A stretch of 64,000 nt of DNA from Dacryopinax spathularia (taxonomy: Eukaryota > Basidiomycota > Dacrymycetes > Dacrymycetales > Dacrymycetaceae). The stretch covers positions 3,088,501 through 3,152,500 of the forward strand of contig JBBPFI010000001.1 in assembly GCA_037974965.1 (NCBI GenBank). Reading direction: 5' to 3'. Below, piece by piece: positions 8,376 through 62,328 of this stretch (within the stretch, counting starts at the first letter, position 1; every line of letters starts with the position of its first letter). Under the pieces are notes generated by a model. It did not search any database and was not told where the DNA came from. It saw only the letters and a program-made list of their open reading frames with translations. Position numbers and translations under genes: made by a program.

Positions 8376-10020
8376 TCAGTGGAAAACGGCGCTCGCGGGC
8401 GGTCTCCCATCCGTGATATTCGCATGCACAATATCCGCAATCGTATAATTCGCCAAACAGTCCCTGGCAAACGAGACCTCCTGAATCCGTTCCTTCATCG
8501 CATTTACCCACGTAGCAGTGCTGCATCGTCCGTACGGATCGGCCGCGCAGCCGGGGATGTTGGTCACGGGCAGGGAGGCGTCGTTCAGCAGCCAACGGAT
8601 GTATGACCCGCTGCCGGAGGGCCCGGAACTGCAGTTGAGCACTTGGGCGACGAGTTGAGTGCCGAAGGGCGCTACTTGCGAGACGATGAAAGACCTGTTT
8701 GGCGGAATATGGTCCGTCGGCAAAGGGCCCGTAGCGGCGAGGGAGGTGAAGTTGAGCGCGACGATGATGGCCGAGATGACCGTGTCGTGGGAAGCGTCGA
8801 CGTAGATGGGCTGGTTGAGCGGGAAGGTTATGGCCGAGTTGTCCAGCGTGCTGTTTGTCGTCGAGTTGTGCACTGCGATAGGCGTCTGCGTAAGCCTAGC
8901 CACGAGTTCCTGGACGTAGCCGATCCCCTGCGCAGCCGTGATAGGCGCGCCGAAGAAATTGGAGTACCAGAAAGAGAGGTCGAACGAGTACTCAAAGCCC
9001 TCAAACTCTTCCTGCGTGAACAGCGGGCAGAAGTCCGAGTAGCCAAGAGCGTTGATCTCGTACGCGCAGAGCTGCTGCATGGCGTATGCGTCCTGGGCGG
9101 TGATGTTCAGTCCTCCCGAGAGAGCGGTAAGCCTCTGCGCGGCGGCGGAGAGGTAGATCGGCACCCAGGCGTTCACTGCGGTTGTGCCCGCGTTCCCGTT
9201 AGCGTTGTTCCCGTTCGTGCAGGTCTCGTAAGGCGCAAGAGTGTTGTTGAACCCGGAAGCTTCGATGATGATCTCCTGGTGGTACTGGTCTTCATAGGGG
9301 ATGCCGAAGAAGCCAGCCGCAAAGTTCAGGGCGGACTTGAGCATCCGATCTTCGGAAGTGGTGCGGAAGACGGGGAGGGTGCCGTTCGGGAATTTGTCCA
9401 GCAGGTAGCCGTATTTGACGCGGAAGGAGACGCCGAGGTCGAAGAGCTGCTCGCGGCCGAAGGGGGTGAGGATCTCCGCTCCGAGCGGGTAGGTCCACGT
9501 GTTGAGGAACGAGAGGGGGCCAGAGGCGTTGAACTTCCCCGTAGCGTTGGCTACTTTCACCCCGAAGGCGGCGGGAGCAGAGCCAGAAGTGGGATAACGA
9601 GCACCATGCCGGTGAAGGAGGTGGACCTGCTGGAGCGTGCACTGGGGCGGGATGAGCGCTGAGCTGTTCGCGAATGCAGGGGAGAACGTCGTTGGCGGGA
9701 GCGACAGAGCGGGGGAGAGGTTACCGAATGAGACGGCAAAGGGGTCGTATGTCCCATTCGCAGGTTCATCAGACGGGCGGAACCGGACCAAGGGGAAGTA
9801 GTTCGTCTGTGCGGGCGCGGCGGGGCCGGTGGCAACTTCGAACGGCTCGATGCCGGCTGCATAGAGGTTCAGCTACCCTGATATATGAGAGTCAGAGTCA
9901 GGAAGGGGACGCACTGGGAGTAGGACCGGGGAAGCCGACGACAGAGGCGGGAGGGAAGAAGCTGTTCACGCTCTGCCCAAAGGCAGCAGAGGCCAAGACA
10001 AGTAGGCTGAGGACGGCCAT
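8376..10020 (-). CDS. Secreted histidine acid phosphatase (phytase-like)
   Basis: Two exons (10020-9915 and 9856-8376, GTGCGT..TATGCAG intron) give 528 residues. A signal peptide (MAVLSLLVLASAAFG) is followed by FFPPASVVGFPGPTPTG, the usual start of mature fungal acid phosphatases. The nucleophile motif LLHRHGARYPT and the proton-donor motif DASHDTVI are both present. Many NxS/T sequons indicate N-glycosylation. Enzymes of this branch release phosphate from phytate and other monoesters outside the cell. The choice of the second of two nearby acceptors is forced by an in-frame TAG after the first. The gene is convergent with the permease and lies next to the KDZ island. Confidence 0.93.
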
Positions 10021-10116
10021 CGCAACGGGATCTCTTGACAGGCTCGCACAGCAGAGGGCAGGCAGGCAGGAGCAAGGGAGCTGAAGCCTAAGGGAGTCAA
10101 GCCGCCAAGATGCGGA

Positions 10117-10127
10117 GGTTATATACC
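10117..10127 (-). promoter_or_regulatory. TATA box of the acid phosphatase gene
   Basis: GGTATATAACC on the minus strand lies about 100 bp upstream of the ATG at 10020, a usual spacing for a TATA element in a regulated fungal gene. The assignment rests on sequence and spacing only. Confidence 0.5.
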
Positions 10128-10837
10128 CTCGTCATGCCTCAGATCGAAGGAACGAGGAGCATATGGACCGTGCCTGCCGAATCCGAAGAACCGTCTCGGT
10201 GGAATGCCGTCAGATCAGAGCACGAAGGTAAGCCATGAATGGAAGTTCAGGGCCGCGACGCCTGTGTGCAACCATCGCTTTCCGGAAATAGCAACTCGAC
10301 GTAGTCGAGAGTCTGAAATCAGCCCACTGTATGGAGCCGGCAGAACACGTTCTGCGATTGTTCATCATGCAGAGGCATTACGCAAGTCTGGAGGGGGATC
10401 ACGTTCGCCCACCCACATCTTCTAGGGTGAGTCTCAGCGCCATATTAGCGGTAGAGGGCGGAAGAGTGGGAAATAGAGGTGTGCGAGTCTGTTCGATTGT
10501 TGGACGATGAGACCGAGGTGACCGAGCTGTAGATCGAAGGGCGCAACTCTAGATTAGATCCAGATCCAGATACCAGATACCAGATCAAGGCTGGCAGTCT
10601 AGTCTGATAAGATCACAGTCCGGCCGTTTTCCCACCACGGTGCATCTAGACCTCGGCCGAACGCCGTGTGCGTATGGGAGGAAGGTGAGAAGAGGAAAGC
10701 ATGCAGCCTCTTCTGGGCGTTTTGGTTGGTTGCTGGATGGGGAAGGCGGTGACGTATTCCATGAGGGGAGGACCCTACGCTTCGACCAACTGCGTCAGGA
10801 ATGCGGGGCACGTGCGAGGATGTTGCTCGCTCGGAGA
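10128..10837. other. Upstream region of acid phosphatase, no gene
   Basis: No supported gene. Short CCAGATA-type repeats occur at 10557-10585, and a GCACGTGC palindrome (CACGTG E-box) at about 10808-10815, roughly 790 bp upstream of the phosphatase ATG. Confidence 0.4.
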
Positions 10838-10874
10838 ACTTCCGACATCTGTGTTTTTCTCTATGCGCTATGCG

Positions 10875-10896
10875 CTATGCGCTACTTAGCGCATAG
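10875..10896. repeat. Hairpin at the left edge of the KDZ island
   Basis: CTATGCGCTA (10875-10884) pairs perfectly with TAGCGCATAG (10887-10896) across 2 nt. It is preceded by two further CTATGCG copies from 10861. A related hairpin lies at 21811-21831 in inverted orientation. Confidence 0.7.
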
Positions 10897-11066
10897 CTTA
10901 CTATAGTAATATTAGTAATTTTTGCTTCCTTGTGCGCGCCGGCCGCGGCTTCCTTCGGCAAGAACCCTGAAGGCCAGGGACCGATGATGGAGTCGTCCTT
11001 CTCCATTGTTGGTTAACAACCAACATTGACATCCGACCTCTTTCTGGAGGGTAGATGTCACTCAAC

Positions 11067-11073
11067 TATAAAA
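11067..11073 (+). promoter_or_regulatory. TATA-like element upstream of the 12401 gene
   Basis: TATAAAA occurs at 11067-11073. The downstream stretch contains a good intron end (T-rich tract then TTTCAG at about 11364), so a spliced 5' leader for the plus-strand gene at 12401 is plausible. This is inferred from sequence only. Confidence 0.3.
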
Positions 11074-11559
11074 TGGGCTTTTTATTACTTTTATCTACTT
11101 AGGGCGAGGGCTGGTGGGAGGTCTGGCCGTCCGCTGAGACTCCCCTGGCCCTCCAAGTTTCTCACTCCGGGCTCGACGTGGCGACCGGCGAGCCAGCCGA
11201 CGATCTGCTCCCCGACGGACTGGATATTGGCAGCAAGAGCCAATCGTAGTGCGACGCGGGGCGGGAATCTTTTGATGGTGACAATCAAAAGGTGCGTCCA
11301 GGCCCTCCATGTTCCCCTATCTTCTCGGGCCCTCACTTACCTGATTTTTTTTTTCGCTTTCAGCAGAGAACGACGAACATCGCTGCTTTCATCCTGACTC
11401 TCACCTTTTCTCTGCGTCCGCCCTTCTTGTCGTGCACCATACCACGACCTTTTGCTTCTATTCAACATTGACGCGCTAATCTGCCATCGAGCTCCTGGTC
11501 GAGCTCAAACCGTGACCGTACCTGTCTCCTTCGTTCACTTCAACACATCGCAAATCTTA

Positions 11560-12400
11560 ACTCCCTCACCCCGTCCAACACCCCCAACACCAACACAACC
11601 AACACCAACACAATCACCGCCTCCAACACAACCAACCCCTCCCTCACAACCTCCAGCACAACCTCCTCCAGCGCGACCGTCTCATCGCTCACCCCCTCCC
11701 ACACCAATCCAACCATCTCCGCGCCCAACCCCTCCAACACAACCATCGATCCCTCCAACCCCTCGAAGACCAACACGACCGCAACCCTCTCCGCCTCCAA
11801 CACCAACCCAACCAACACCAACCCCCCCAGCACCAACACAACCAACCCCTCCAACACCAACCCAACCTGCACCTCCGCGTCCAACTCCTCCAACACCAAC
11901 ACCAACACCTCCAGCCCCTCCACGTCCAATCCAACCAACCCAACCCACACCAACCCCTTCCTCACCCCCTCCAACACCAACGCGACCAACCCCTTCCTCA
12001 CCCCCTCCAACACCAACGCGACCAACCCCTCCCTCACCCCTCCCAACACCAACGCGACCAACCCCTTCCTCACCCCCTCCAACACCAACGCGACCAACCC
12101 CTCCCTCACCCCCTTCAACACCAACGCAACCAACCCCTCCCTCACCCCCTCCAACACCAACGCAACCAACCCCTCCCTCACCCCCTCTAACACCAGTCCA
12201 GCCAACACCAACCCATCCAACCCCTCCAACACCAACCCAACCAACACCTCCGCGTTCAATCCCTCCACCACCAACCCCACCGCAACCTCCACGTCCAACC
12301 CCTCCGACACCAACCCCTCCAACCCAACCAACCGCTCCACGTCCAACCCCTCCAACACCCCCATCCCAACCACGACCGCCGTCCTCTCCAGCACTGCAAC
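11560..12400. repeat. C/A-rich minisatellite tract 1
   Basis: About 840 bp built from variants of CCAACACCAACC on the plus strand (GGTTGGTGTTGG on the other). Two plus frames are open, reading PTPPTPTQ or NTNPTN, but only the first has an ATG and neither runs into the gene at 12401. The tract is read as leader or 5'UTR-intron sequence of that gene. The part at about 11939-12140 is repeated, identical by eye, in inverted orientation at about 15660-15459. Confidence 0.85.
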
Positions 12401-14353
12401 ATGTCGTCTCGGCTGATGAAGCCTGAGCTGGCCGTCGAGGAGGTCCTCAAGATCATCAATGACCGCAATCCTGGTAGGCGTGTCGCCATTTCCAAGGACG
12501 TCTTTTGCCCGCGCTGCAGCAAGAAGGCTCGCGTACGGGTCTGTATGGACCGGAAGGGGAAGAACGAGTCGAAGTATGGGCGGATCCACGGCCTGGTGAG
12601 TTGTGTAGCTGTCGCCGTGTAGCCTGCTTTGCTAACATCGTTGACAGTGCCTCTCCCATGACAATCCGGAAGAGCGGGTCTTCTGGATCACCGATCCTCT
12701 CCATCCGGACGATCGCCAAGCCCTGCGAGCGAGCTTAGAGCAGGCCGCGTTCGACTGGAGTTCCAGTCCAGCGAGGGACGACCGTCCCCACAAGCAGGCA
12801 CGACTGGCGAGGGACCGCAACGGCAAGCGCTACAAATCTTGCTTGGCCTGTGGGAAGGGGCGCGCAGCACAGGCTTGCGAGAAGCAGTGGTGCAAGGCTT
12901 GCTGCATTAACCGCGAGCGCAACAATGCATGGGCGAAGTCCGTCGGCTGCGCCTATCATGGTCACCAGGACCAAGCATGGAACGACGGGCGAGGTTTGGG
13001 ACCGGATGACGAGCTAGGGGGGTTGGGAGAGGTTGGGGGATTTGGAGGTTGGGGAAGGGAGGGAGGAGAGACAGGCTTGGGAAGGGGGGATGGTGTTGGG
13101 GAGGGCTTGCCGTCGACGCAAGCGTTCCATGGTCCAGCCCGCATCGGTCGCACGATGCGTCCCGCCTATCTCGCTCTTCGGGACGAGGAGAGGCGTGCGG
13201 AGGACGCTCGCAGGCAGGAGGAGAGAGATGCACGGGAGCGGGCTGAGACGCTGGCTCGCATGTTCACGTTAGTGGTGTTCACCAAGGTACGCTCTTTCCC
13301 TTCGCTTTCTCTTCCAAGCGCTGACTGTCCTCGCAGGACGGGAAAAAGACGTATCCCATTCCGGCTCTACGTGCCAACATGGACGGCCTTTCTACTCGTG
13401 TGTGCAGCTGGCCCGACCGCGTCCTGGCCCGGCTCTGTCCGTACGGAGAGGAAGATCTCGTGGAAGTGCTCCTCTACGACCTAGATTCTCGGAGCTGGAC
13501 TTCGTACGACTCGATCACCTACCGCTTGGTCAAACGCGGGGAGCGGCTGCTTTGCCGCTTGCCTGATGTCCCTGTTGACGCACCAGACGTGCTGGAGGAA
13601 GTGGAGCATCTTGTTCCTGTTCTGCGTGATGCAAGGCGAAAGCACAAGCAGCCTGCTGTGCCTTTCTATTCACCACCTCATCCTCCACCACCTCATCCTC
13701 CAGCACCTCATCCTCCAGCACCTCATCCTCCAGCACCTCATCCTCCAGCACCTCATCCTCCAGCACCTCATCCTCCAGCACCTCGTTCACGTCGTCGTGC
13801 GCGCAGCCCATCAACGGATCTTGACTTGTCGAACGACACCCCAATCTCGTCCCCCATTATCGACTGCATCGACCTCACCACATCCCCTTTGCGGTTCGTC
13901 CCTTCGTCATCTGCCGGCCCTGCCGTTCATGATGTTGATGCTCAGCTCGACCCCTTTGTCGGCTCTCCATCTCCCTCGCCTTCTCTTCCCCCCTCGTCTC
14001 CCATCTCGATCGAAGAGATCATGACGGACAAGTGGCCCGGCTCTCGCTCCTTCAGGACGATCTATGGCGCCGTTCAAGTGATCGACGACAAGATACATCG
14101 GCAAAAAACCACCTGGGAGAAAGCGTTTCAGGACCACTACGGATACCTCAAACCGTACTCGACTTGGCGACAGCATGCTGGCTACCTGTATAATCCTCGT
14201 CTCAAGGGTCTTGTTCAAGAGTACCTGGCGAAACCCCACGAGAAGTGGTGCGACTTTGCTTACGAGGCCAGATGTTTGCTAGAGGGTCGAGAACCGGGGG
14301 GGCGCAAGCGAAAGGGAAAGGCAACCAAGAACACCAAGCGCACCAAAGTGTAA
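12401..14353 (+). CDS. Cysteine-rich, putatively zinc-binding protein in the KDZ island
   Basis: Exons 12401-12595, 12648-13286 and 13337-14353 give 616 residues; I do not recognise a named family. Residues 28-80 hold CPRC, then SKYGRIHGLC split by intron 1, then H and RVFWI, a spacing reminiscent of GRF-type zinc fingers. A second cluster near 125-165 reads CLACGKGRAAQACEKQWCKACC followed by GCAYH. Then come a Gly-rich segment, a charged helix rich in ERRAEDARRQEE, a tandem Pro/His stretch (HPPAP units) and a basic C-terminus (GGRKRKGK). The basic and zinc-like parts suggest nucleic-acid binding, which is inference. Intron 1 begins with the island's 20-bp repeat motif. The upstream minisatellite probably lies in its leader. 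Confidence 0.75.
13672..13783 (+). repeat. 15-bp tandem repeat in coding sequence
   Basis: About seven copies of CACCTCATCCTCCAG encode an HPPAP repeat in exon 3 of the 12401 gene. The same CACCTCATCCTCCAG unit recurs (reverse strand) at the edge of minisatellite tract 2 near 15160-15185. Confidence 0.85.
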
Positions 14354-14776
14354 GTAAACTATCGATATCTTTCCTTTTACAGCCGCCCAAGGAGGACTTC
14401 CATACTTGGGCATTAATACTTACTTTCTGCACGCTGCTTTCCATCTACCAGTTCGACACACTAATCCTTCCTTCGCTTGCCACACGCTCGTTCAGACTAT
14501 CTTTTTTTATCAACGAGTGTAATTAGTTGGCTATCGCCTTAAAAGGCGTAATTACATGACGTTGCCCCTGTAGGGCATACCCAAAAAAAAGAGTGTGATT
14601 TGACCCACATATGGGTGTCGGAAGAAGAGTGCAGTGGGGAGGAATGGGTGGGTAAGGACACAGTAAGAAGGACAAGCAGGATAGTGGCATACAAGAGGCA
14701 TACAAGGAGCTTATCATGAGTAACAGCATACAGAGAGCATACAGAGAGCATACAGGAGGGCCAATGCTCCTCTAGC

Positions 14777-16279
14777 TTAGGCAAGGCTAGGGCACAGACG
14801 TCCAGCCTGTAGCCCGGTCATCTGCCTGCGTGCCAGTCCCATCTCCTCCTGGATCTCCCTACGAGCGCTCTCAAAGGCTGCACGCTCCATCGCCTCGGGT
14901 GACATGTCGTAGCGTTCGCGCAGGGGCCTGCGCATCACACGAGCTGCAACAGGCGAGGGATTGGAAAGGGTGCTACTCGATGCACTGGATGGTTGAACTC
15001 CAGCCGCTCGGTTATAGTAGAAGTCGGGCCGGACGATGCGAGGGAAGTTGTCGTACTCAGGCGGAACGCGCAGGGTAGCGTAGATAGGAGGGATGTCCTC
15101 CCATCTCTGGTAGGCAGGAGGACTGTCGTCCTCCGGACTGGTGTTGAAGGGAGAGGTGCTGGAGGATGAGGTGCTGGAGGATGAGGTGGCGGTTGGGTTG
15201 GGGGTGTTGGAGGCGGAGAGGGTTGCGGTCGTGTTGGTGTCGGAGGGGTTGGTTGGGTTGGTGTTGGTTGGGTTGGTGTTGGGGGGGTTGGTGTTGGAGG
15301 GGATGGAGGGGCTGGTGTCGGTTGGGTCGGTGTTGGTTGGGTTGGTGTTGGAGGGGATGGTGTTGGAGGGGATGGAGGGGCTGGTGTCGGTTGGGTTGGT
15401 GTTGGAGGGGTTGGATGGGTTGGTGTTGGCTGGATTGGTGTTGGAGGGGATGGAGGGGGAGGGGTTGGTTGCGTTGGTGTTGAAGGGGGTGAGGGAGGGG
15501 TTGGTCGCGTTGGTGTTGGAGGGGGTGAGGAAGGGGTTGGTCGCGTTGGTGTTGGGAGGGGTGAGGGAGGGGTTGGTCGCGTTGGTGTTGGAGGGGGTGA
15601 GGAAGGGGTTGGTCGCGTTGGTGTTGGAGGGGGTGAGGAAGGGGTTGGTGTGGGTTGGGTTGGTGTTGTTGCTTGAGAGACTTTCGTAAACAGGCGGCAG
15701 AGACGCAGGAGCCGTCCCCGCACCGACCTCTCCATCCATCAGCTCGCGTGCCATTGAGCCATTGGCACGGACTGAAAGAGGCCGCTCGTGCAAGGAAACC
15801 GGAGTGGTACTGCGAGGAAGGGCAGTGTCCAATGGATGGTTGACAGTGTTAAATCCCTGAGGGCCTGCAGCAGAGCTGATAGGACCTGAGGGAAGGACTG
15901 TCAACGTATCCGGATCTACCTCCGCCCACAGGCGACGGATGAGATCATCGACAGCGCCCGCAGGAACGGTGGGCCCCATCGAAGGGTTAGCAGCGGAGTC
16001 GGCTGCCGGGCCCATCCGCAGGCGATGGGCGGTGAGAGTTGTGTAGCTGTGTCGACCGATTCTTCCGACGATATCCTGCCTACCCCGAGCAACCACGTCG
16101 GTCGCTTGCTCGGGACCGGCTCCTCTAGCAGTTCCATGGTTACTACCACGATCTAACTTTGCATTAGACCATGTACGACCTCAGCAAGTACAAGACGCAC
16201 CATGCTTCCCTCCTCCCCTCTTATCGCCGCTCTTAGCGGACGACTTGGAGTGAGAGAAGGCCCTAGGCCACAGAGCCAT
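14777..16279 (-). CDS. Asn/Thr/Pro-rich protein of unknown function in the KDZ island
   Basis: Exon 1 is 16279-16201 (starting MALWPRAFSHSKSSAKS) and exon 2 is 16152-14777, giving 484 residues if no further intron exists. A 5'UTR intron (GTGAGTAC..TTTCATTAG) is visible upstream at about 16290-16360. The N-terminal half has no known domain. The middle (about residues 185-330) is the translation of minisatellite tract 2 as NTNPT/NTNATNP repeats. The C-terminus contains two PPxY-type motifs (PPAY and PPIY; a PPVY sits before the repeat) and an arginine-rich amphipathic end. PPxY motifs bind WW domains in known proteins; a role here is only a guess. The repeat might instead be an intron, as in the KDZ gene. 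Confidence 0.55.
15160..15665. repeat. C/A-rich minisatellite tract 2
   Basis: G-rich on the plus strand (GGTTGGTGTTGG variants), so the C-rich strand is the sense strand of the minus-strand gene it lies in. Its right part is an inverted copy of 11939-12140. Its left part (about 15183-15400) is a near-identical direct copy of 20047-20290. Confidence 0.85.
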
Positions 16280-16768
16280 GATCGGCTTTGTAGGTATTGA
16301 CCTAATGAAATATCAGTAAACCTATTGCAACCTGTAGCGAGCATTTGTACTCACAGAAAGTTGGTTGGATGCAAGCTGGTGAGTTCAGTAGAAGTTCGGA
16401 TGGTCGTAGGGAAGAGACGATGAGGAGGAGGCATGAGGCGATGATGAGGGGAGTTTAGCCGCTGACAAACTTGGCTCCGTTGGCGCTTCGCCTGATATAG
16501 CCAGCCTTCCGATCCGATCTTAGATCTAAGATCTAAGATCTCTCGATGGGCGCTTATCTCTCATCCTCCCCGACTGGGGATCAACAATGCTTACAATATC
16601 CTGCGACTAGGTACATTACAACGTACAAGTGACATCGCCGGTTAGGTAAACGAAAGGTAAGACCACGAGAACAATAGCCTTCTGCTCACCCAAAAGAAGC
16701 CCCCCCTCCCGAAGCCCCATGAATCCATCTATCGCCTCGTGTTCTGAGCTGGCGATCGCCTCGTGCCC

Positions 16769-16789
16769 GATCGACACAGCTACACAACT
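16769..16789 (-). repeat. Copy of the 20-bp island motif, upstream of the 16951 gene
   Basis: Reverse complement of AGTTGTGTAGCTGTGTCGAC with one mismatch at its end. It lies in the leader/promoter of the 16951 gene, just before a likely 5'UTR intron (GTAATC.. to CCCTACAG at about 16853-16910). Other copies are at 12598-12614 (partial), 16037-16057, 17317-17337, 18153-18172, 18197-18217 and 18219-18236. Confidence 0.8.
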
Positions 16790-16950
16790 CACCATAGAGC
16801 TGTCCGACCACCCAAGCCTATTGTCAATAACCTGGACTCGAGGTAATCGCCCACGAAAGGTGCGCTTACCCGTAATCTGATTCCGCCGCCCCTAATAACT
16901 CCCCCTACAGCAATCGGTCCTCCCCTCTCTCAAACCACCACCATTGACTC

Positions 16951-18073
16951 ATGGAGGCTAGCTCGCCTCCTTCGACTCCGACCTCTTTTAAGTCTGCTCG
17001 CTCAACTACCTCTGCCAACTCCTCGCCCGGCAAGACGACAGCCAACGCTCGCGTTACGAGCAAGATGTCCTACAACCCGAGCTCGATGACTGGACCGACG
17101 AAAGCAGCGCAGGCGACGAACGCCAAGCTGTATGCGCCCGCCGTAGGGAAAGGAAGGGGGAATGGTGGTGCATGGGGTGCGATGGGGGATGGGGAGGGGG
17201 CTAACGCTGCTGTGATCGCTGGCGTCCGGGAGGTTGAGCTGGAGTACGGGGCGCCTGCTTTCATTGGGGAAGTACCCCTTATTGCCTTGCTGCGTGCAAG
17301 GGGAGCTCCGACGGTGAGTTGTGTAGCTGTGTCGACCGAGAAGGTCGACACTTAACAGACTCGCTACTGACCTTAATCTTAGGACACTCCTAAAGGCCCC
17401 GTCATCCATCCGCCCCGCCAGCAGGAGATGTACGGTAACACATCTCCTGCTGGGCCTGCTCCCCCTGCTCCGTCTGCTCCGTCTGCTCCCCCCGCCCAGC
17501 AGGAGGAGCTCCAGCCTATCACGATGGAGAGACTCGCCGCGGAACGTACGCCTAGTTTCCCCATTGGGATGATGTCGGAGGAGGAATGGCAGCTCGAGCT
17601 GAAGCGCTTGAGGGCTATCGCCTTCGAATACGGCCGGCTCTTGCGTCGTAAGGAGATGTTCCAGGAGGAAGAAACCAGGCGCCAGAAACTGGCGTCAGAG
17701 CGCCAAGCCATCCACGACCAGATCTGGGAAGAATACGTCGAGAAGGGCAAGAACTACATCGACATCCTCATGGGCGAAGACGAACGCGCCAAGGAGAACA
17801 TCTATAGCCCTGCCCTCCAAGCTGCCGTCAATCTGCAGTCTCCTTCCCCTCAGCAGTCGTCCGTCCCTCACTCGCCAGTCGCTGGCCCCTCCACCGAGGG
17901 GCAGGGGAAGGATAAGAAGCGCGTGAAGAAGTTTTTTGGCAAGATTGCCAAGTTGGGAGGTAAGTCGCATTCGCGACTAATCTCGTTACATTACTAACTA
18001 CGCTACAGGCAAAATAGGAATGGACGCCGCCGAGGAGGCGCTCAAAGGAGCGTTGGATGAGGACGATGACTAG
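16951..18073 (+). CDS. Basic, low-complexity protein of unknown function in the KDZ island
   Basis: Exons 16951-17313, 17383-17959 and 18009-18073 give 334 residues; I do not recognise it. The first 60 residues are rich in S, T and A. Residues 70-120 contain a Gly-rich stretch and EVELEYGAPAFIGEVPL. A Pro/Ala linker follows. Residues about 170-240 form a long charged helix (EEWQLELKRLRAIAFEYGRL, then EMFQEEETRRQKLASERQ) that could be a coiled coil. A basic patch KDKKRVKKFFGKIAKLGGK and an acidic end (ALDEDDD) close the protein. Intron 1 starts directly with the 20-bp island motif and contains a GTGTCGACC / GGTCGACAC hairpin. It lies tail to tail with the KDZ gene. Confidence 0.7.
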
Positions 18074-18138
18074 GCTCAGGTTTGCACGTAGATACGGCTC
18101 GTGTGTTAAGGAAATGCGTACCCTGTTGAATGGAATAA

Positions 18139-18161
18139 GTGTCGACCGTCTCGGTCGACAC
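18139..18161. repeat. Hairpin made of the island motif core
   Basis: GTGTCGACCG (18139-18148) and CGGTCGACAC (18152-18161) are perfect inverted arms with a 3-nt loop. The right arm continues as another copy of the motif (CACAGTTACACAAC). Confidence 0.8.
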
Positions 18162-18196
18162 AGTTACACAACAAACGTCTTGCCTGTGCCTTCCAT

Positions 18197-18236
18197 GGTC
18201 GACACAGCTACACAACTCAGTTGTGTAGCTGTGTCG
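18197..18236. repeat. Tail-to-tail pair of the 20-bp island motif
   Basis: CGACACAGCTACACAACT (18200-18217) and AGTTGTGTAGCTGTGTCG (18219-18236) are perfect inverted copies separated by one base. The pair lies between the stop codons of the 16951 gene and the KDZ gene, so it could act in RNA 3'-end formation for both or bind the transposase. Neither role is shown. Confidence 0.8.
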
Positions 18237-18313
18237 CCTTTATCCTAAACCAGTCCCAGGCACTCTTGTACACATACAATTAGATATGCGATTTGGAATG
18301 AAATTTTTATTAA

Positions 18314-21300
18314 CTACTCTAGTACAGAATCAGGTATCAAGTGAGGCATGTGGTTATCCCGGCGGAGCTGAAGAATAATGTGCTCATTGCGAGCCTTGAT
18401 CACCTCGTCTAAGAAGAACTCGAACCGCACAGCGGTCATGTCGCGAACCTGAGCAGCAAACTTGCGCATCCAGGCGTTTGTCTGTTCGCAAGCCGACGAG
18501 TTGAAGAGCCACTTGTTTGGCCTTCCTTCGTCGTATAGATCCGGGTAGAGCGCAGGGTTGCAGTAGGTACTGCAGTATTCATCCCCGCTGTTCTTGTGTT
18601 TCTTGTCCCAGTGGAATGCGTCCACCACGAGCGTAGTATGCTCAAAGTGAGCACGAACGTCTGGACCGAGGTTTTCTAGATGCCGGCGAAGTTGGCAATT
18701 GTTGTCGAAAAACAGTACGTCGGGCATAGATTCCCGCTTGGGGAAAACGGTCATGATAAAGTCCTGAAGGACTAATTAGCAATGAACAACTGACAAGCGA
18801 ACGTACTTACGATGACAGAGCCCAGCGCCTCTGCACCATAAAAGGTACCTCGCGCAACGATAATACCGCACGGATGCACAACAAGCTGCTCGTTGTGCGT
18901 CCGGTTCCTTCCAAATCGTGCCCGTAATACCTTCCTTCTCCTCTCCTTCGTTGGTAGCCGATCGAGGGGGATCATGTCGAAGTCTTCAGCCTCCTCCTCT
19001 ATCTCCAGCTCGACAACTTCATCGACTTCCTCGTCCTCCTCGTCCTCCTCCTCCTCATCGACTCCATCCCCCTTCCCGCCATTCTCGGTCGCATGCGCTT
19101 CAACATACTCCAACCCCTCAACCTCATCCACCATCTCAACATCCTCCTCCCCAATCTCCCGCTCTACAATCCTCGCGATCCGTTCACCTTCTCTCGCTCC
19201 AGCCCCTCTCCCTTCAACATCACCTTCCCCCTCCTCAGCCCCTCTCCCTTCAACACCACCGTCCCCCTCCTCAGCACCTCTCCCTTCAACACCACCTCTC
19301 CCTTCAACACCACCTCTCCCTTCAACACCTTCCTCTTCCCCTCGCTCGTATGCGCGTCGAGCTCGCCGAGAGAGCAGCGTGAAAGACTTGCCGGCAGCTT
19401 TGTACTTCTCCTCGAGCGCTTGGTGCTCGGCTATTCCGCAGGTGAGTCGATCTGATTGTCTTGGCTGTTCACAGCCGTCGACAGCGCAGAGATGTTCGCG
19501 AGCGGCATGCGTCGCGCAGAAGCGAGCGCGATTGTTGAGGAGGGGAAGTGGGCAGTTGTGCACCGCACAACAGGGGTGGCCGATGGCGATCCCATCCGTA
19601 ACGGCGCACTGGATCATCCCTGGGATATGGTCAGCACCGCCTTAGCAGAGGAAGTGGGCTTACTTTGCTCCTCTCCGTGATGTACAACCTTGAGGCAAAG
19701 GTCGCACGCGTGACCCCATTGCGGTTGACCATTTCTCGAGAAGAAGTCGTTGCGCTCTTGCATAGCGTGCAAAAGGCGCTCGGTTTGGTTGCGGGCGGAC
19801 TCGGGAAGTCGGAGACGCGTTCGTTGCTCGCTGTGATGAAGAAGGAGGGCGAAGAGATCAAAGAGATCGGAGATCCATTCGCCCCGGAGTGGAGGAGCGT
19901 CGTATAGCCCGACCGAACGGGCACGCGTCTTGCGGAGAGCCTGCTTGTACGTCCTGGCATTCGCTGTCGCCGACGAGCTAGAAAAACCCACATCAGCGAA
20001 AGAACAGGTAAGGAAGGAGAAGGAGGCGCTGGAGGATGAGGAGCTGGAGGGGATGGTTGTGGTTGGGTTGGGGGTGTTGGAGGCGGAGAGGGTTGCGGTC
20101 GTGTTGGTGTCGGAGGGGTTGGTTGGGTTGGTGTTGGTGTTGGTTGGGTTGGTGTTGGTTGGGTTGGTGTTGGGGGGGTTGGTGTTGGAGGGGATGGAGG
20201 GGCTGGTGTCGGTTGGGTCGGTGTTGGTTGGGTTGGTGTTGGAGGGGTTGGTGTTGGAGGGGATGGAGGGGCTGGTGTCGGTTGGGTCGGTGTTGGAGGT
20301 GCGGGATTCGGAGGGGAAGGAGAAGGCCGTCTTTAAAGCACCGAAGGCGGGGTGGGAATGAGTAAGAAAGAGATATGTACTTACTGTGCGTGCACGGTTT
20401 GCGCCCTGAAGAGCTCACACAGCTGTCGTTCGAATAGCATGTGTTTCTCCACCTGTATCACACCAGGCACCCCATGGTAGTACACTCTCTCGTCTTCTCC
20501 GTTAGAACCCTTCTCCCGCAAGTAGTTAAGGTGGTACGTCGCTCCGCAGCTTCGGCAGTACAGACTCGACACCATAACTGGAAAAGCCCCACGTCCAATG
20601 GTGTAAAAACCGGCGAGGTATCTTTTAGCATCGCGTAATGGTTGCCTTGTGTCATTGCTGAGGAAAGCGGGGCAATCGTCTTGAATGCACACGCGAGTAG
20701 GAGGATAGAACTCCTCCACAGCTGCAGATATGTTAGCCGAGTTTCAGAAAAAGGGGTAAATGAGATAAGGACAAGCAACGAAGGGTGGAGTGTTGGAGGG
20801 GTTGGTTGGGTTGGTGTTGGAGGGGCTGGACGTGGAGGGGCTGGAGGGGTTGGTGTTGGTTGGGCTGGTGTTGGAGGGGTTGGACGCGGAGGGGCTGGAA
20901 GGGTTGGTGTTGGTTGGGTTGGTGTTGGAGGGGTTGGACGCGGAGGGGCTGGAGGGGTTGGTGTTGGTTGGGTTGGTGTTGGAGGGGTTGGACGCGGAGG
21001 GGATGGTTGGGTTGGTGTTACAGGGATTGGTTGGGTTGGACGCGGAGGGGTTGGTTGGGTTGGACGCGGAGGGGTTGGTTGGATTGGTGTTAGCTGTGTT
21101 GGAGTTGGAGGGGTTGGAGGGGTTGGTGTTGGTTGGGTTGGTGTTGGAGGGGTTGGTTGTGTTGGATGGGGAGGGAGGTTCCAAAAGGAGAGAAGGGTGA
21201 GATAGCACGTACCAAGGGTGAAGCTTTGTGCGAGCTGGGCGAACGGAGTGAAGTCGTCGACTAGAGGATTGCAGACGTCCGATGGATTGAAGTGGGGGTC

Positions 21301-21564
21301 CCATATTACTTTACGTAGCGCTCCCCATAGCCCTATGATTTGGACAGGCGAGGCATTGATTGCGTTGGCGAGGAATTGGACGACAGTATTAGGTAGGGTA
21401 TGGGGCGGCGTGTCGAGCTCGCCGAGGTGAGTAAGCTCTTGCCAGGCGATTCGAGCCTGCAATCGCCGCGAGAAGGCCAGGAAGGAGAGCACTTGTTCGA
21501 CAGTTATGTTGCCCAGGATAAATCGCAGCCTCCAGAAGAGCAAAACGAGACGAAGCAGATTCAT
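18314..21564 (-). CDS. KDZ-type transposase with CxC5/CxC6 cysteine clusters
   Basis: Exons 21564-21213, 20721-20385, 19977-19664, 19619-18811 and 18763-18314 splice in phase to 753 residues without stops. Order of parts: an N-terminal helical CxC5-type region; a first cysteine cluster (VCIQDDCPAF, then SLYCRSCGATYHLNY); GVPGVIQVEKH; ATANARTYKQALR; a second cluster (HACDLCLKVV, VTDGIAIGHPCCAVHNC, ARFCATHAA, LCAVDGCEQP, LTC); an acidic low-complexity insert (about 395-560); RTHNEQLVVHPCG; then LFFDNNCQL, CNPALYPDL, FNSSACEQTNAW and FFLDEVIKARNEH. The acidic residues at about D343, D624 and E697 fit a DDE-type RNase H fold. This family is named for its association with KDZ transposons. Introns 1 and 2 (491 and 407 nt) are long because they contain minisatellites; introns 3 and 4 are under 50 nt. 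Confidence 0.85.
20045..20310. repeat. C/A-rich minisatellite tract 3, in KDZ intron 2
   Basis: Near-identical direct copy of 15183-15400. The tract lies inside an intron whose exons join in phase (GCA CA|C TCG), giving the family-typical SSATANARTYKQALR. One minus frame happens to stay open through the tract. Confidence 0.8.
20785..21180. repeat. C/A-rich minisatellite tract 4, in KDZ intron 1
   Basis: GGTTGGTGTTGG variants with GGACGCGGAGGGG spacers on the plus strand. The tract lies between the GTACGTGC donor at 21212 and the CTGCAG acceptor at 20722. It has the same composition as tracts 1-3 but different spacers. Confidence 0.8.
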
Positions 21565-21736
21565 GTCGCCAGAGAGCCCCGCGTCAGCAATCGCAACACA
21601 GTCAAGCTGAGCCCGTCGCCAGAGAAGAAGTGAAGTCGATAATGGCCTTGATCGGGCCTCAGGGCCTCAGCGTTGATAGCGCCCACGAAGGTCAACAATC
21701 ACGCGAGGACCCATTGTCAGGCACGGGCGCAGAAGT

Positions 21737-21796
21737 TTGATTGCCGAGATCGGCAATCAATTTTTGCGGGACCCCAGACGCTTTCAGCTGGGGTCC
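21737..21796. repeat. Two hairpins at the right edge of the KDZ island
   Basis: TTGATTGCCGA (21737-21747) and TCGGCAATCAA (21750-21760) are perfect 11-bp arms with a 2-nt loop. GGACCCCA (21769-21776) pairs with TGGGGTCC (21789-21796). The CTATGCGC hairpin at 21811-21831 follows. Three hairpins in 95 bp suggest a structured transposon end. Confidence 0.7.
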
Positions 21797-21854
21797 ACAG
21801 GGGCTATGCACTATGCGCGCGTAGCGCATAGGGTTTGCCGCAGACCTCGGAAGT

Positions 21855-22494
21855 AGTGCTCGCTCGACACTGAGGGTGTGGGTTCTGGAATCCGAATCTT
21901 GACTTGAAGGAGCACATGTGCGACACAGCTTGGTTCGATGGTCGATGTATTGCGGGTCGGCGGAACGCTGGGTGTAGAGTGAGATGGGAGGGGACACCCC
22001 CGGCGGCGAGGAAGGAAAGTGAACGGCTGGGAATGTGTGGCGAGCTGATGGTGGCACGAGGTGATGGGTGATGGCATGCAATGAGGTGTGGCTCGTACAC
22101 GGGACGATGGACGTGCATGTGCGTGGATGATGATGAACTGGATTAGGCAGTGGGAAGGGATGACGAGAACGAGGTGCACGTTGCTCCCTCTCCTCGCCGC
22201 TGTGCACGCTCTGCTTACGCACCCAAACCCGGCGAATCCGATCGTGTCCAACCCAATTCCTTCCCCTTCGACGCCCCTCGTGCTCCATCGAATGACAGCC
22301 CCACCAATCGAAGCGCCAGAAGACGGGAAGAAGGGAAGATGGGAAGGAAGGCATCGAACACGGTCATGGATCCTACCTCGGGGCTTCTTCTCCGTGCCTT
22401 ATTATATCCGACCTCAAAACATTCCAGTCCCTCTTCTCCTCCTTAGGCTGCCCATCTCCTCACCTAGGCGACTAGGAAAAGGCAAAGGACAAGG
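21855..22494. other. Upstream region of the phosphodiesterase gene, no gene seen
   Basis: No open frame here has recognisable content on either strand. It should hold the promoter of the gene at 22495. Confidence 0.4.
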
Positions 22495-24608
22495 ATGTTG
22501 CTCGCCGCTGTTGGGTTGTCACTCGTCGCTCTCGCTAATGCGCAGAGCACCCTCACCCTCGGGAACGCGACCTACGTTGCGCCCGGGGTGTTTCCAACCG
22601 AGGTGCGCTCGTTCATCTGAGTTCGTGGTATGAAAAGCTGAGTATATGCGCGCAGGCATTCGCGAGCTACTACAACAACCCTACTGCGACGGACGAGCAG
22701 CCCCAGCCGGTCGTGACGAACGTCCTGACCGGCCAGGCCTTCCCCGCCGCCTTGACGGACCCGCGCAATATCCCGCTGAACGACACTGCCGACCCGCGTT
22801 ACCTCCCTCCTTCGCCCCTGCCCGCCTCGCAGGCCGGACCGCTCATCGCAAGTGCGTTCAACCAGATCGTGTCCATCGCCAATCCGAATAACACCGGCTG
22901 GGGGAACAACTCCGCCTGTGCTCGCTGTCTTGCCGGGCTCGAGGTCGGCAAGTCCCTCGCCGTCGCGAGCTCCGGTGCGGTCCCGACCCTCGCAGTGCAG
23001 CTCTGCCAGCACTTCAAGTTCTCCACGACCTGCGAGCAGACATATGGCATCCTCTCCCTTGGCCAGGTTATTGCCCAGGTGCTCGCAGCTGCCGATGTCG
23101 GGGGGTATGACGGCCAGATGATCTGCAACAACTTCCTGAGCGGCGCCTGCCCTCTCCCGCCTCCCTCGCCGCTCAACCTAACGGGATACTTCTCCAAGCC
23201 CAAGCCGGCTAACGCGACCGCCCCTACTCCCTCTGGTCAGCGTGTGAAGGTCCTGCATATGTCCGACTTCCACCTCGATGCCCGCTACTCGACCTTCTCA
23301 GAAGCGAACTGCACGAGCTCGCTCTGCTGCCGGGCGAACAATCCCAACTCGCACTCGCCTAACCAGGTCCTCCTGCCTGCACCGAGGTACGGCGCATACA
23401 CCTGCGACACGCCTTACGACCTTGCGCTCGCTGCGCTCCAGGCTATCCCTGAGCTCACTGGCACCGTGGGAAGCGGGTTTGACTTTACGGTCTATACTGG
23501 CGACCTCGTCTCGCATGATCCCGAGAACGAGCTCTCCCAGTCTTACGTCGAGTACACCGAGGCCGCCTTGTATGGGCTGTACAAGAAATACCTCGGCACT
23601 GGCCCGCTCTACGCGGCCATTGGGAATCACGACAGCTACAACCAAGCGTCCGACGCGCCCGCCCTCCTCGGCACGCAGCTGGGGCAAGCGAACTTGTCCA
23701 CCCAGTTCTCGTGGAACTACAACACCCTCGCTGCTCTCTGGGAGGGGAACGGCTGGATCTCGTCCGACGTTGCGGCCCAGGCTAAGGCGCACTACGGTGC
23801 CTATTCCGTTGCTCGTCCTGACGGCCTGCGCATTATTACTTTGAACACAGACCTGTGGTACAAAGCCAACTACTTCAACTATATCAACATGACCAACTCT
23901 GACCCCTCGGGCATGCTCCGATTCGTCGCCGACGAACTTCAGGCCGCAGAGGACGCCGGCGAGCGGGCATGGATCGTCGGCCACGTTCTGTCAGGCTGGG
24001 ACGGCAGCAACCCGCTGAACAACCCTACCAACCTGTTCTACCAGATCGTCGAGCGCTATTCGCCACACGTGATCGCCGCCATTTTCTTCGGCCATACGCA
24101 CGAAGATCAGTTCAACATCTTCTACGCTAACAACGGCACCAACGCCTCCGCTGCCTCCGCTCTGGCCGTCTCGTGGATCGCGCCCTCTATCACTCCGCTC
24201 ACGAACTTGAACTCGGGGTTCAGGATGTACGAAGTAGACAGCAAGACGTTCGACATCCTCGATGCCCACACGTGGTACACCAACGTCAGCGCTTTCCCCA
24301 CCCTGGACAACCAGACCACCCACGGCCCCACGTGGAAATACGAATACAACACGCGCCAAGCCTGGGGCACGAACATCTCCTGGCCGAGCACCGCACCGCT
24401 GAACGCGACGTGGTGGCATCGCGTCACGGAGCAGTTTGAGCAGCACCCGGCGCTCGTGCAGCAGTATACGACGTATCAGGGGAAGATGAGCCCTCTGAGC
24501 CCGAACTGCACGAGTGACGCGTGCGTGAAGGCAAAGGTGTGTTATATGCGTGCGGGGTCGGGTCCGATTGGGAAGGCGTGCCCGCAGGGCTTTGGCTCGG
24601 TTCAGTAG
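22495..24608 (+). CDS. Secreted acid sphingomyelinase-like phosphodiesterase
   Basis: Exons 22495-22602 and 22656-24608 give 686 residues. A signal peptide (MLLAAVGLSLVALANAQS) leads to a saposin-B-like region (about 130-205) with the cysteine pattern CARCLAGLE, LCQHF, TTCEQ and MICNNFLSGAC. The calcineurin-type metallophosphoesterase domain has all metal ligands: MSDFHLDARY, YTGDLVSHDP, AIGNHDSYN, IVGHVLSGWDG and FFGHTHEDQF. These are the motifs of acid sphingomyelinases, zinc enzymes that hydrolyse sphingomyelin and related phosphodiesters outside the cell or in the vacuole. In fungi the substrate may be another phosphodiester lipid. Many N-glycosylation sequons occur. Its terminator region contains CCTTTTCTTTTC runs just after the stop. 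Confidence 0.93.
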
Positions 24609-25029: not shown

Positions 25030-27000
25030 TCAGTAGCCGCCTGACTGGAGAGCACCAGCCTGGACAACACCGCCGCTCGCAGGCCGGAGAACCTGGTTCG
25101 TGCCGGCCAGGACAGAGAACGAGGCGGATTGGCTATACGGAGCAATCAGCATCAGAACATACAACGACGAATGGAGGGCGCGTACAACTCGTTGCTGTTC
25201 CTGGTCAAGATATCAGGAATGGCGAAGAAGTTTGCGGTCACGTTATGCGCCGAGACATGCAGCTCGTAGTAACCCCTGTAGAACGCCTCTGACCAGAGCA
25301 AGTCTGGGTTGAGCTGCACTAGCTCGGCAGAAGCGATATGCGACATGTTCAGCGGCACAGCGCCGAACGGCGACGGGGAGGTCACTGCCGTCCCTGCAAA
25401 CTCTACCAGCTGACCCCTGGTGTCGGTGGTGTTGAGGCCTTGGACCTTGGTCAAGGAAGCCTCAAATACCCAGTTGGCGTGGCTGTCCCCTGAGAGGACG
25501 ATGACGTTGTCGATCGAGTTGTCGTACAGGTGGGTGAGGAACCGGTTCCTGTTCGCACGGTAGCCGTCCCACGCGTCAAAGTCGAACGTCTCGCTCGTGT
25601 TGAGGCCAGTGTAGTTCAGGTCGCCGAAGACGATCTGCTGGCCGACGATGCGCCATGTTGCACCGCGAGCTACGGAAGCGTCCAGGGTGGAGTAGAACCA
25701 GTCTTCCTGGTCCTTGCCCATCAAGGAGCGGGAATCCTCGGTCGAGGAGAGCATGGCGATGTAGTCGGTGTTATAGTACAGATCAGTGATGTCGCGGTCG
25801 TATTGGCGCGTATCGAGCAGGGATAGATCAAATAGCTTGCCGAATTGGATGTTGTGCCAGATACGTAGCTTGTCGTCCGCCGAAATCTGGCGGATCGGCT
25901 GCCATTCGTGGAAGGCGCGAATGGCGGAGGCCTTGCGTTCGGAGAAACAGACGCCGAGGATGGAGCAACCGAAAGCAGTGTCGTTCGTGTTGGCCGTGCC
26001 GGCCTTCCAGGCCTGGTCGGCAACATCATGATCGTCCCAAACGATATACCACGAGAAGAGCCTATGATTCTCCTGCAGGTCAGGGTCGGTACGGTACTGC
26101 GCAATACGAGTGCGGTAGTCGGAAAGCGTCGCAATCTCCTTGTCTGGCAGTGGGACACGGCCGATAGACGTGCCGTTGCCATAGTCGCCGTTCTTGTACT
26201 CGTAAATGTAGTCCCCGAGGTGGATCACATAGTCGACTGACTCCTTACGAACAGGGCCGCCGTATGCCTACGACGATGTTAGTCGAGCTTGCTGGAAGGA
26301 GTAGGCAGTAACGTACGTTGAAGAAACCGAACGGAAGGTTGGAGCATGAGTATACAGCGAAGCGTTGCGTGCCGACTAGGTCAACAGGGGTGTCAGCGGA
26401 AGGCGCAGTCCGCCCACGGCCAATAGGCGACTTCTCCTCCGGTTTGGCGCAGTTTGCGAACTGGTAGTAGTACAAGCTGAGCGCGTACAGGCCGGTGGCC
26501 TCGACCTTGACGGTAAAGTCGACGTCGTAGCTTGTGTAAGCGGTGCCTTTTGCGACGGGGTTGCCGGACGCGTCAGGGGTCGTGTACACCGCGTAGGACA
26601 CGCAGACTGGTACGTCGACGGCTGCGACTTGTGTTGGCTCGGCACGCGTCCATAGGATGAGGGAGCGGTCATCCGGGTCTCCAGAAGCGACCGAGTGGGT
26701 GAAGTTGACCGAGCCAGCGTAGATGTACTCGGCGTTGCTGAAGTCCGCTCCGGCGTACTTGACGTATCCCTCATCTCCGGTCGAAGGCGCGTTGGTCTGC
26801 GGGAACGGCCCCAGAGGGTCCATGGGCACCTCTTGGCGCTTTGCGAGGTGGTTCGCGACGCTGTGCAGCGAACGACGGTGGAGCTTGTGTACTGGAACTG
26901 CGAGCTGGGGGTGGTTCAGACTGGGAGAGCGGTACACCAAGTTGGAGCTGTACGAAGCGAGCGCCAGAGGCGCCAAAGCCAGGAGGGTGAGAGCGACCAT
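25030..27000 (-). CDS. Secreted PhoD-type alkaline phosphatase/phosphodiesterase
   Basis: Exons 27000-26317, 26267-25186 and 25132-25030 give 622 residues. A signal peptide (MVALTLLALAPLALASYS) precedes the N-terminal Ig-like domain with FTHSVASGDP and LILWTRAEP. The catalytic domain has IHLGDYIYEY, FSWYIVWDDHDVADQAW and VIVLSGDSHANWVFE, the PhoD metal-site motifs. A plain reading stops at 25152, but a GTACGC donor and TATAG acceptor splice past it to FSVLAGTNQVLRPASGGVVQ, the normal C-terminal strand of fungal PhoD proteins, so the spliced end was preferred. PhoD enzymes are calcium/iron-dependent and release phosphate from diesters and monoesters. Confidence 0.92.
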
Positions 27001-43625: not shown

Positions 43626-44357
43626 TCAACGCCTCCAGCTGGTCCACAACGACGGCAGCTCCTCATCTCCCTCTCCCTCGACGACCTCATCCCCACCCGA
43701 GCTCTCGCCGAACGACTTTGGCTCCCAGGCCTCTCCCATCTGGTTCCATGGCCCTTCTCCGCCCACAGCACCATTCAGCACCTGCAGCCGGTGGTTCCTC
43801 AACGCCTTCAACACCATGCTAAACCCATACCGACTCTTCTCGACGTTCTGCCTAAACCTGTTCAACCCAAACTTCTCGATCCGGTTCTGCAGCAGCCTCG
43901 AGAAGTTCGAGTTGATCGTAGCGGTCGTCTCGTGCAGTGTCCGGTTGGGATCATCGGGGTGCGGACGGAGATGAGCATACTCGACAACTTTCATTATCTT
44001 CACATGGTCAAGGTTGCGCGTGCGGACGTTCGTCTCGCCGTTGTAGGGGTCGACTTCGCTCTCCTCGATAACCCAGCTCTCCGTACGAGGGCCGAGGATG
44101 CCTGATGGAGCCCAGCGAGGGAGCGAGCCGCGCTTAAGGATGAGCCGGGTAGTGACGAGCGTGCCGCGCTCAGTGAAGAGGCGGTCTACTACGTCGACGG
44201 AGACGATATGCGAAGCGTATGGATTCGGGTAGCGTAGGAAGAAGGCGAGGGTTACTGTGGGGAAGGGGTCGCTGAAGCAAGCGTCAGCATACGCAGCCCG
44301 TGTGCTGACGGAACGGCTTGCTTACTCGTACACATGCGTTTGGCGAAAGAACTTCAT
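43626..44357 (-). CDS. UPS1: PRELI/MSF1 lipid-transfer protein, Ups1-like
   Basis: Exons 44357-44326 and 44271-43626 give 225 residues. The start MKFFRQTHVYDDPF and FFLRYPNPYASHIVSVDVVDR are the PRELI signature. RTESWVIEESEVDP, VRTRNLDHVKIMKVVEY and the C-terminal helix NRFRQNVEKSRYGF match Ups1/PRELID1 more closely than Ups2. With Mdm35, Ups1 moves phosphatidic acid across the mitochondrial intermembrane space for cardiolipin synthesis. An acidic tail (about 30 residues) is added after the helix. A second PRELI gene lies 3.6 kb away on the same strand. Confidence 0.88.
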
Positions 44358-47973: not shown

Positions 47974-48622
47974 TCATGCCTCCTGCTTACTATCGTCGCC
48001 GAATAATCGGCGTAGTACGCCATCGAAGCCTTCCTTGCCGCGGATTGCGTTCTGCTTGAACCGGTCTAGGCTCATGAGCTCAATCTTGTCGCCAACGCTC
48101 TTCCACAGCTTGGGTCGGGCTTGAATTTCGGCAGTCTGGCGGAAAGTCGTCCGGGTTTTGGGGAAGGCGATCGATGGAACGTAGGTGATCTTCTCGACCA
48201 CAGTCATGTACTCGGATAGTGATAGGTTGACTGAGTGGATTGTGGTGGTCTTGTTTTTCGGGTCGACAAATGACACTTCGCGGACGTAGGCGTCTTCGGT
48301 GCCACCGAGGAACTGCATGCTGTCAGTATCTTTGCGCCAGCGCAACATGTATGCACGTACCTTGACAGCCCATGCTGGTGCAGCCTGCTTGCAACCTAGT
48401 AGCCGCTCCGTCCGTATTATGCCAGTCTTCGGGTCAATGGTCCGGTCGAGGACGTCGACCGAGATGACATGGGCGCATTGCGGATTTGGGTATTTCTGCC
48501 ACATGCCGACCTGGACGTTCGCCCATGGGTGACTATAGACGCATTTTGGTCAGCCAAGTTCAGTTCAATCCAGAAGAGGTTGCTCACTCGTAGTGAAAAG
48601 CTGTCGAAAAGTATTGGACCAT
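47974..48622 (-). CDS. UPS2: PRELI/MSF1 lipid-transfer protein, Ups2-like
   Basis: Exons 48622-48588, 48532-48361 and 48312-47974 give 181 residues. The start MVQYFSTAFHYDHPWANVQ, then WQKYPNPQCAHVISVDVLDR and YVREVSFVDPKNKTT, match the Ups2/PRELID3 (slowmo) branch: DHPW near the start and VxVDVLDR-x-ID with GIIRTERLL. Ups2 with Mdm35 transfers phosphatidylserine to the inner mitochondrial membrane for conversion to phosphatidylethanolamine. Intron 1 falls at the same codon (the glutamate/aspartate after HxY) and phase as in the Ups1-like gene at 43626, pointing to an old duplication. Confidence 0.9.
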
Positions 48623-62170: not shown

Positions 62171-62190
62171 AACGCCTATGTGAGGCACTG

Positions 62191-62214: not shown

Positions 62215-62328
62215 CTGCATCCGTAGGATGCATACCGTGCTCAGCTCAAGTCACCCATTAACGACAGCAATCTACTTGTGTGCACTTATTGTCTAACCAC
62301 CTTGCCATCCATCAGCACTATACCCACC

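Follow-up and report, generated by a model that had tools for sequence, protein, structure and literature searches.

A putative complete KDZ-group transposon of the CxC5/CxC6 type with three additional genes in Dacryopinax spathularia

We analysed a 64,000-nucleotide stretch of DNA from the basidiomycete Dacryopinax spathularia (GenBank assembly GCA_037974965.1, contig JBBPFI010000001.1, positions 3,088,501 to 3,152,500 of the forward strand), hereafter called the window, in whose numbering all positions are given. We found that the window very probably contains a complete and apparently intact cut-and-paste transposon of the KDZ group and of the CxC5/CxC6 type (our probability is about 0.8), which spans 11,025 bp and holds four genes, namely a transposase gene and the genes referred to here as 12401, 14777 and 16951. 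We prefer the reading of a full-length element because its target duplication and inverted ends were unique in our search and stood above both shuffles and control pairs. A first-pass annotation, made from the sequence alone, had proposed an 11-kb transposon with a KDZ-type gene and three further genes; the borders, the CxC5/CxC6 assignment and the genes were upheld, while the KDZ core stayed below threshold.

The element was delimited at 10834-21858 by the target duplication and the inverted ends, which comprise the following features.

10826-10833, no strand: left copy of the 8-bp target-site duplication CTCGCTCG, an exact repeat abutting the left end
10834-10875, plus strand: left terminal inverted repeat, 29/42 against the right end
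10861-10896, no strand: left cluster of four CTATGCGC sites with hairpin (10861, 10868 and 10875 on the plus strand, 10889 on the minus strand)
21811-21831, no strand: right pair of CTATGCGC sites (21811-21818 plus, 21824-21831 minus), the outer one 27 bases from the end
21817-21858, minus strand: right terminal inverted repeat, 29/42 against the left end
21859-21866, no strand: right copy of the target-site duplication CTCGCTCG, an exact repeat abutting the right end

The first 42 bases of the element and the reverse complement of the last 42 agreed at 29 positions without gaps. Among 3500 left and 3000 right positions, these ends were the sole pair that combined an exact 8-bp repeat with an end match of at least 20/42. 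Shuffling the right side in 100-base blocks gave a maximum of 22/42 (n = 100), and control region pairs from elsewhere in the window gave at best 21/42 (n = 39, each 1500 x 1500, a smaller search per pair than that at the element; 60 pairs were drawn and 21 touching 10000-22500 were skipped). The cores ACTTCCGA (from 10838) and TCGGAAGT (to 21854) had served as borders in the first-pass annotation, and the element extends four bases further outward on each side. The target duplication that it had named as a check was found on either side, and together with the terminal 8-mer it makes the borders firmer than they were there. The hairpins that it had noted at the ends were also recovered, with a z-score of -3.3 on the left (0/200 shuffles as good) and -2.3 on the right (3/200).

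The CTATGCGC 8-mer, which was chosen after its repetition in the ends had been noticed, occurred at six sites in the window against an expected 1.6-2.3, four in the left end and two in the right end. Its first copy sits 27 bases inside the element at both ends alike, and we regard these clusters as candidate binding sites of the transposase. Among the features of KDZ elements, we list terminal inverted repeats with CTATGCGC at an equal offset in both ends, an 8-bp target-site duplication as in Zisupton and Dileera, and a CxC-type cysteine cluster N-terminal to the core of the transposase. It is highly improbable that the borders arose by chance and that the region is an ordinary gene cluster beside a transposase relic. 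Such an origin would suit the imperfect inverted ends and the CG-rich, internally repetitive nature of the 8-bp repeat, but the end match together with an exact duplication exceeded every shuffle and control pair, all six CTATGCGC copies fell in the ends, and the transposase frame was unbroken.

The transposase gene lies next to the right end and contains two long introns.

18314-21564, minus strand: CxC5-CxC6-KDZ-like transposase gene (exons 21564-21213, 20721-20385, 19977-19664, 19619-18811 and 18763-18314)
20722-21212, minus strand: transposase intron 1, 491 nt, of which 391 nt are minisatellite
19978-20384, minus strand: transposase intron 2, 407 nt, of which 258 nt are minisatellite

The model of this gene consisted of five exons with GT..AG introns and encoded a protein of 753 amino acids with no internal stop, in agreement with the earlier statement that the gene is uninterrupted and carries CxC5/CxC6 clusters. 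The whole protein matched the Pfam families CxC5 (105.3 bits; cut-off, 26.9) and CxC6 (91.5 bits; cut-off, 27.5), both of which carry names referring to their association with KDZ transposases. The remaining seven introns of the four gene models measured 44-69 nt. The KDZ-type identity that had been proposed was supported in one part: the CxC5/CxC6 matches were strong, whereas the KDZ catalytic core fell below the Pfam cut-off, and for this reason the predicted transposase is best described as a CxC5/CxC6-type protein with a divergent core. A search of solved structures with the core returned nothing convincing; a BURRH match had an E-value of 0.01, with no stretch passing alone. Pattern searches in viral and prokaryote collections, which carry little weight, gave 1 stretch in viral contigs and 31 in genome contigs for the last transposase exon and 4 stretches in viral contigs for the CxC5 exon, none of which was confirmed.

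The three other genes were modelled as follows.

12401-14353, plus strand: gene 12401 (exons 12401-12595, 12648-13286 and 13337-14353), 616 amino acids
14777-16279, minus strand: gene 14777 (exons 16279-16201 and 16152-14777), 484 amino acids
16951-18073, plus strand: gene 16951 (exons 16951-17313, 17383-17959 and 18009-18073), 334 amino acids

These models likewise had GT..AG introns and no internal stop, so that the four genes together comprise 13 open exons. The genes are laid out as two convergent pairs, 12401 with 14777 and 16951 with the transposase, and a divergent promoter separates 14777 from 16951. The 12401 protein has a Cys/His-rich N-terminal half, an (HPPAP)n repeat and an isoelectric point (pI) of 9.3, as well as one IDLT motif, which we take to be of a type that could bind SUMO. 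The 14777 protein (pI 6.7) contains an N/T/P-rich repeat encoded by minisatellite DNA and four PPxY motifs, and the 16951 protein has a charged central stretch that may form a coiled coil. The latter had been called basic, which its overall pI of 6.4 contradicts. None of the three proteins gave a Pfam match at E<=10; a named zinc-finger type for the 12401 protein found no support in the domain search, and no TET/JBP dioxygenase was seen among them. The search of solved structures, made with the N-terminal part of the 12401 protein and with the 16951 protein, returned nothing convincing. Starship elements are defined by a tyrosine recombinase "captain" gene, and no such Pfam match was present in the four gene models. 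Among the listed literature on KDZ, CxC5/CxC6 and the minisatellites of basidiomycete DNA transposons, we found no description of this three-gene set; Iyer 2014, reportedly the founding paper of the KDZ group, lay outside that scope and may describe related cases.

Two repeat families link these genes. The first is an A/C-rich minisatellite family, whose arrays occupy four places: the region upstream of 12401, the coding sequence of 14777 and the first two introns of the transposase gene.

11575-12374, plus strand: minisatellite array upstream of the 12401 start codon, of the CCAACACC/CCAACCCC type, with the C-rich strand as sense
15153-15668, minus strand: minisatellite array within the 14777 coding sequence

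The C-rich strand was the sense strand at all four places, and short G-tract runs (28, 22, 15 and 18) were confined to the template strands, with 0 on the sense strands. The arrays were connected by long identical stretches: 11934-12141 upstream of 12401 equalled 15664-15457 of the 14777 coding sequence over 208 bp in reversed orientation, and 15356-15248 of the latter equalled 20247-20139 of transposase intron 2 over 109 bp. Additionally, the CACCTCATCCTCCAG unit, with 37 bp in common, codes for HPPAP in 12401 but for Ser/Thr in 14777. The same array DNA thus occurs in a non-coding upstream region, in an intron and in translated sequence, which argues for copying at the DNA level within one element and not for related proteins. 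Both strands of the window outside the element held only 1/53 of the CCAACACC core words, 0/42 of the CCAACCCC words and 0/31 of the CCTCCAACA words, which makes 1/126 in total. The earlier claim that the minisatellites touch 12401, 14777 and the KDZ gene was confirmed, with the refinement that the shared arrays of the transposase gene are those of introns 1 and 2, while exon 4 has a separate 18/36-bp array of another type whose C-rich strand is antisense; the claim that they do not occur in the other 50 kb was nearly correct, the single outlying word excepted. The six arrays that were counted made up 20% of the element.

The second family is a dispersed 17-20-bp motif. With as many as 3 mismatches allowed in 17 bp, seven sites were present in the window, where 0.09 were expected, and none of 100 shuffles reached seven.

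12600-12616, plus strand: motif copy
16038-16054, plus strand: motif copy in the 14777 coding sequence
16772-16788, minus strand: motif copy in the divergent promoter of 14777 and 16951, from the motif scan
17318-17334, plus strand: motif copy
18156-18172, minus strand: motif copy
18200-18216, minus strand: motif copy
18220-18236, plus strand: motif copy
18141-18238, no strand: group of three motif copies, arranged palindromically, between the 16951 and transposase genes at their 3' ends

All seven sites lay at 12600-18236, inside the element, which bears out the earlier statement that the motif touches 12401, 14777 and 16951 and is restricted to this block. The weakest copy, with 3 mismatches, was that of 12401. 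Folded as single-stranded DNA, 18130-18245 gave a z-score of -10.0. The first introns of 12401 (12596-12612) and 16951 (17314-17330) open with an identical 17 bases, GTGAGTTGTGTAGCTGT, which are part of the motif. Since both introns begin with GTGAGTTGTGTAGCTGT, the dispersed motif appears to supply the predicted 5' splice site in two genes that have no visible relation. We rejected the motif as the end-binding site of the transposase, as 1.8-5.2 kb separate its copies from whichever end is nearer and the ends possess an 8-mer of their own; at such distances, a regulatory role would suit it better than end recognition. A nested element with the motif copies at 16772 and 18220 as its borders was considered by eye and likewise set aside; no flanking duplication was seen.

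These repeats bear on the origin of the three genes. It is quite unlikely that they are host genes that a KDZ transposon took up recently as cargo. In favour of this, they lack a Pfam domain that would tie them to transposition, and capture of TET/JBP genes is known from KDZ-group elements in mushrooms and rusts (PMC12730594). Against this, the repeat families run across these genes as well as the introns of the transposase gene, and the rest of the window lacks the motif and almost all of the array words, which points to a long shared residence; furthermore, the four genes interlock as two convergent pairs. As the repeat families are common to the genes and nearly absent elsewhere, we consider the three genes to be long-standing genes of the element; they may act as regulators.

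On the reading of a complete transposon, the 753-residue CxC5-CxC6 protein would recognise the element ends, perhaps at the CTATGCGC clusters, and would excise the element and reinsert it with a stagger of 8 bp. Genes 12401, 14777 and 16951 would be part of the element and most likely contribute to its expression or movement. In particular, the Cys/His-rich, basic 12401 protein may bind DNA as a partner or regulator, with the 20-bp motif as a possible target, and the 14777 protein may be an adaptor to WW-domain proteins, the established partners of PPxY motifs. Recombination or gene conversion within the element may have carried the minisatellites from gene to gene. The roles proposed for the three genes are tentative and somewhat doubtful.

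Several observations weigh against a complete, intact KDZ-group element. The KDZ family (PF18758) matched C-terminal pieces of the transposase at 15.6 bits (open reading frame of the last exon) and 15.0 bits (last 198 amino acids) against a cut-off of 26.6, with E-values of 0.013-0.02 and approximately 51 residues aligned (profile positions 119-171 of 217), and it was not listed for the whole 753-residue protein at E<=10. KDZ proteins typically carry the first catalytic Asp in the first strand of the core, and no aspartate was seen in the likely first strand (HPCGIIVARGTFYGAEA); on this account, the predicted transposase may or may not be catalytically competent. Two single-sequence structure models were poor, with a mean predicted local distance difference test (pLDDT) score of 42.5 for the exon-5 model and of 49.4 for the other. 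The splice models come from visual inspection of open frames and consensus splice sites, and the roles proposed for the three genes are derived from their composition and position. The observed/expected CpG ratio was 0.81 in the element and 0.95-1.01 in the flanks, which could reflect some decay or simply CpG-poor arrays. Finally, the inverted ends are short and imperfect (69% alike over 42 bp), whereas those of Cryptococcus KDZ1-KDZ3 measure 139-241 bp (PMC12810828). No TpA/ApT sign of repeat-induced mutation was present, with a ratio of 0.74 in the element versus 0.76, 0.67 and 0.67 in three flanking stretches. GC content at third codon positions gave no clear foreign signature: it was 0.61-0.71 in the four element genes, compared with 0.77-0.79 for three phosphatase-type frames nearby and 0.63 for a dynein frame.

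The sub-threshold core also allows a different assignment, in which the CxC5/CxC6 protein is the DNA-binding part only and a different KDZ element mobilises this one in trans. For Pleurotus, no KDZ transposon was reported in the vicinity of CxC5/CxC6 genes, and the intact KDZ genes described there had CxC2 (PMC7641404). The element described here, however, has an intact gene between matched ends with an 8-bp duplication, and the C-terminal part of its product resembles KDZ, albeit weakly; for the Pleurotus insert, which was present in 4 versus 2 copies between haplotypes, copia elements were the only partner proposed in the account of its spread (PMC7641404). We regard movement in trans as having a small chance of being correct, and we keep the CxC5/CxC6 protein as the putative transposase.

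Among the known elements most similar to ours is this Pleurotus ostreatus insert of 6,792 bp in poMSH4, which broke MSH4 and is the source of a sporeless oyster mushroom (PMC7641404). According to its description, it contains an open reading frame for a CxC5/CxC6 protein of 739 amino acids, compared with 753 here, together with a microsatellite cluster (signature BC5NWY, which is C-rich as we read it) and short direct repeats of 46 bp (PMC7641404). As given above, the copy number of the insert differs between haplotypes. For CxC5/CxC6 regions in Pleurotus, between 44 and almost 60 copies are reported (PMC7641404). Unlike our element, the insert is approximately 4 kb shorter, its description names no further genes, and it was published as devoid of a KDZ transposase, with copia elements suspected as helpers that may have moved it; neither "TSD" nor "target site duplication" appears in the main text (PMC7641404).

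Two other sets of basidiomycete elements were compared. TET-carrying Kyakuja, Dileera and Zisupton elements are likewise KDZ-group elements with an extra gene, but that gene encodes a TET/JBP dioxygenase, which Pfam did not reveal here; 8-bp duplications are reported for Zisupton and Dileera, and 7-bp duplications with CA..TG ends and no terminal inverted repeats for two Kyakuja families of Laccaria (PMC12730594). The KDZ1-KDZ3 elements of Cryptococcus neoformans, which were shown to move, are about 9-11 kb long, with duplications of 8 bp (KDZ1) or 4-8 bp (KDZ2 and KDZ3) (PMC12810828). They resemble our element in size, terminal inverted repeats, duplications and a cysteine-cluster KDZ transposase, and differ in having CxC1 instead of CxC5/CxC6 and in that no accessory genes are named in their description.

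The placement of the repeats was further compared with the VANDAL elements of Arabidopsis. There, the motifs targeted by VANC build up in tandem within the introns of the element's own genes and upstream of these genes, and VANC proteins often have tandem peptide motifs in their variable regions (PMC5735166). A similar anti-silencing system, in which a protein of the element would bind the motif, the arrays or both and prevent silencing, is improbable here, roughly to the same degree as movement in trans. Arrays fill much of two transposase introns and lie in front of 12401, both 12401 and 14777 contain repeats that are translated, the motif lies within or near the 5' parts of three genes, and this anatomy resembles that of VANC target repeats and VANC peptide motifs. 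On the other side, no VANC homologue was seen and the three proteins lack any Pfam match (whether Pfam contains a VANC model was not checked), and slippage with gene conversion alone could explain the arrays. Like our element, VANDAL21/VANC21 has several genes and carries tandem repeats specific to it within introns and upstream of its genes; it differs in being a plant MuDR-type element with experimentally shown VANC21 binding, and nothing homologous to it was found here. The presence of VANDAL-type repeat placement thus supports a statement that the element may work like VANDAL, not that it belongs there. A slightly less probable proposal is that a fungal KDZ transposon marks its own genes by a private motif and minisatellites and encodes a reader protein through which it escapes silencing or sets expression. 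If so, and with the same low likelihood for both together, it would be a convergent, unrelated counterpart of VANDAL/VANC with three previously undescribed gene families.

Around the complete transposon that we favour, Pfam identified a histidine-type acid phosphatase frame (phytase-like; 8379-9872, minus strand) on one side and a sphingomyelinase-like phosphoesterase frame (22539-24605, plus strand) on the other, the latter followed by a PhoD phosphatase frame (25155-26267, minus strand). These phosphatase-type neighbours are a possible phosphate-scavenging cluster. Elsewhere in the window, two related frames on the minus strand, 43629-44321 and 47974-48504, were located approximately 3.7 kb apart and were 32% identical over 164 aligned positions; the former was scanned against Pfam and matched PRELI. 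Dense direct and inverted repeats of 35-48 bp surround AACCCATCACGAGCTCG at 59813-60023, perhaps the end of another mobile element. Tandem arrays of 41 bp and 42 bp (61950-62215 and 63704-63998) bracket a frame at 62227-62997 with no Pfam match, and similar 32-bp sequences, 88% alike, were found at 62184 and 63967, 1,783 bp apart. Rfam and tRNA scans of the window returned none.

Our results suggest that the CxC5/CxC6 protein is itself a transposase, which would be an alternative to copia helpers for the Pleurotus insert as known from its description. A complete element with matched ends, a duplication and an intact CxC5/CxC6 gene would make this alternative for Pleurotus direct and testable. 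In addition, the three extra genes and the repeats that they share with the transposase gene may provide a fungal case for the study of self-regulation and self-recognition in large DNA transposons.

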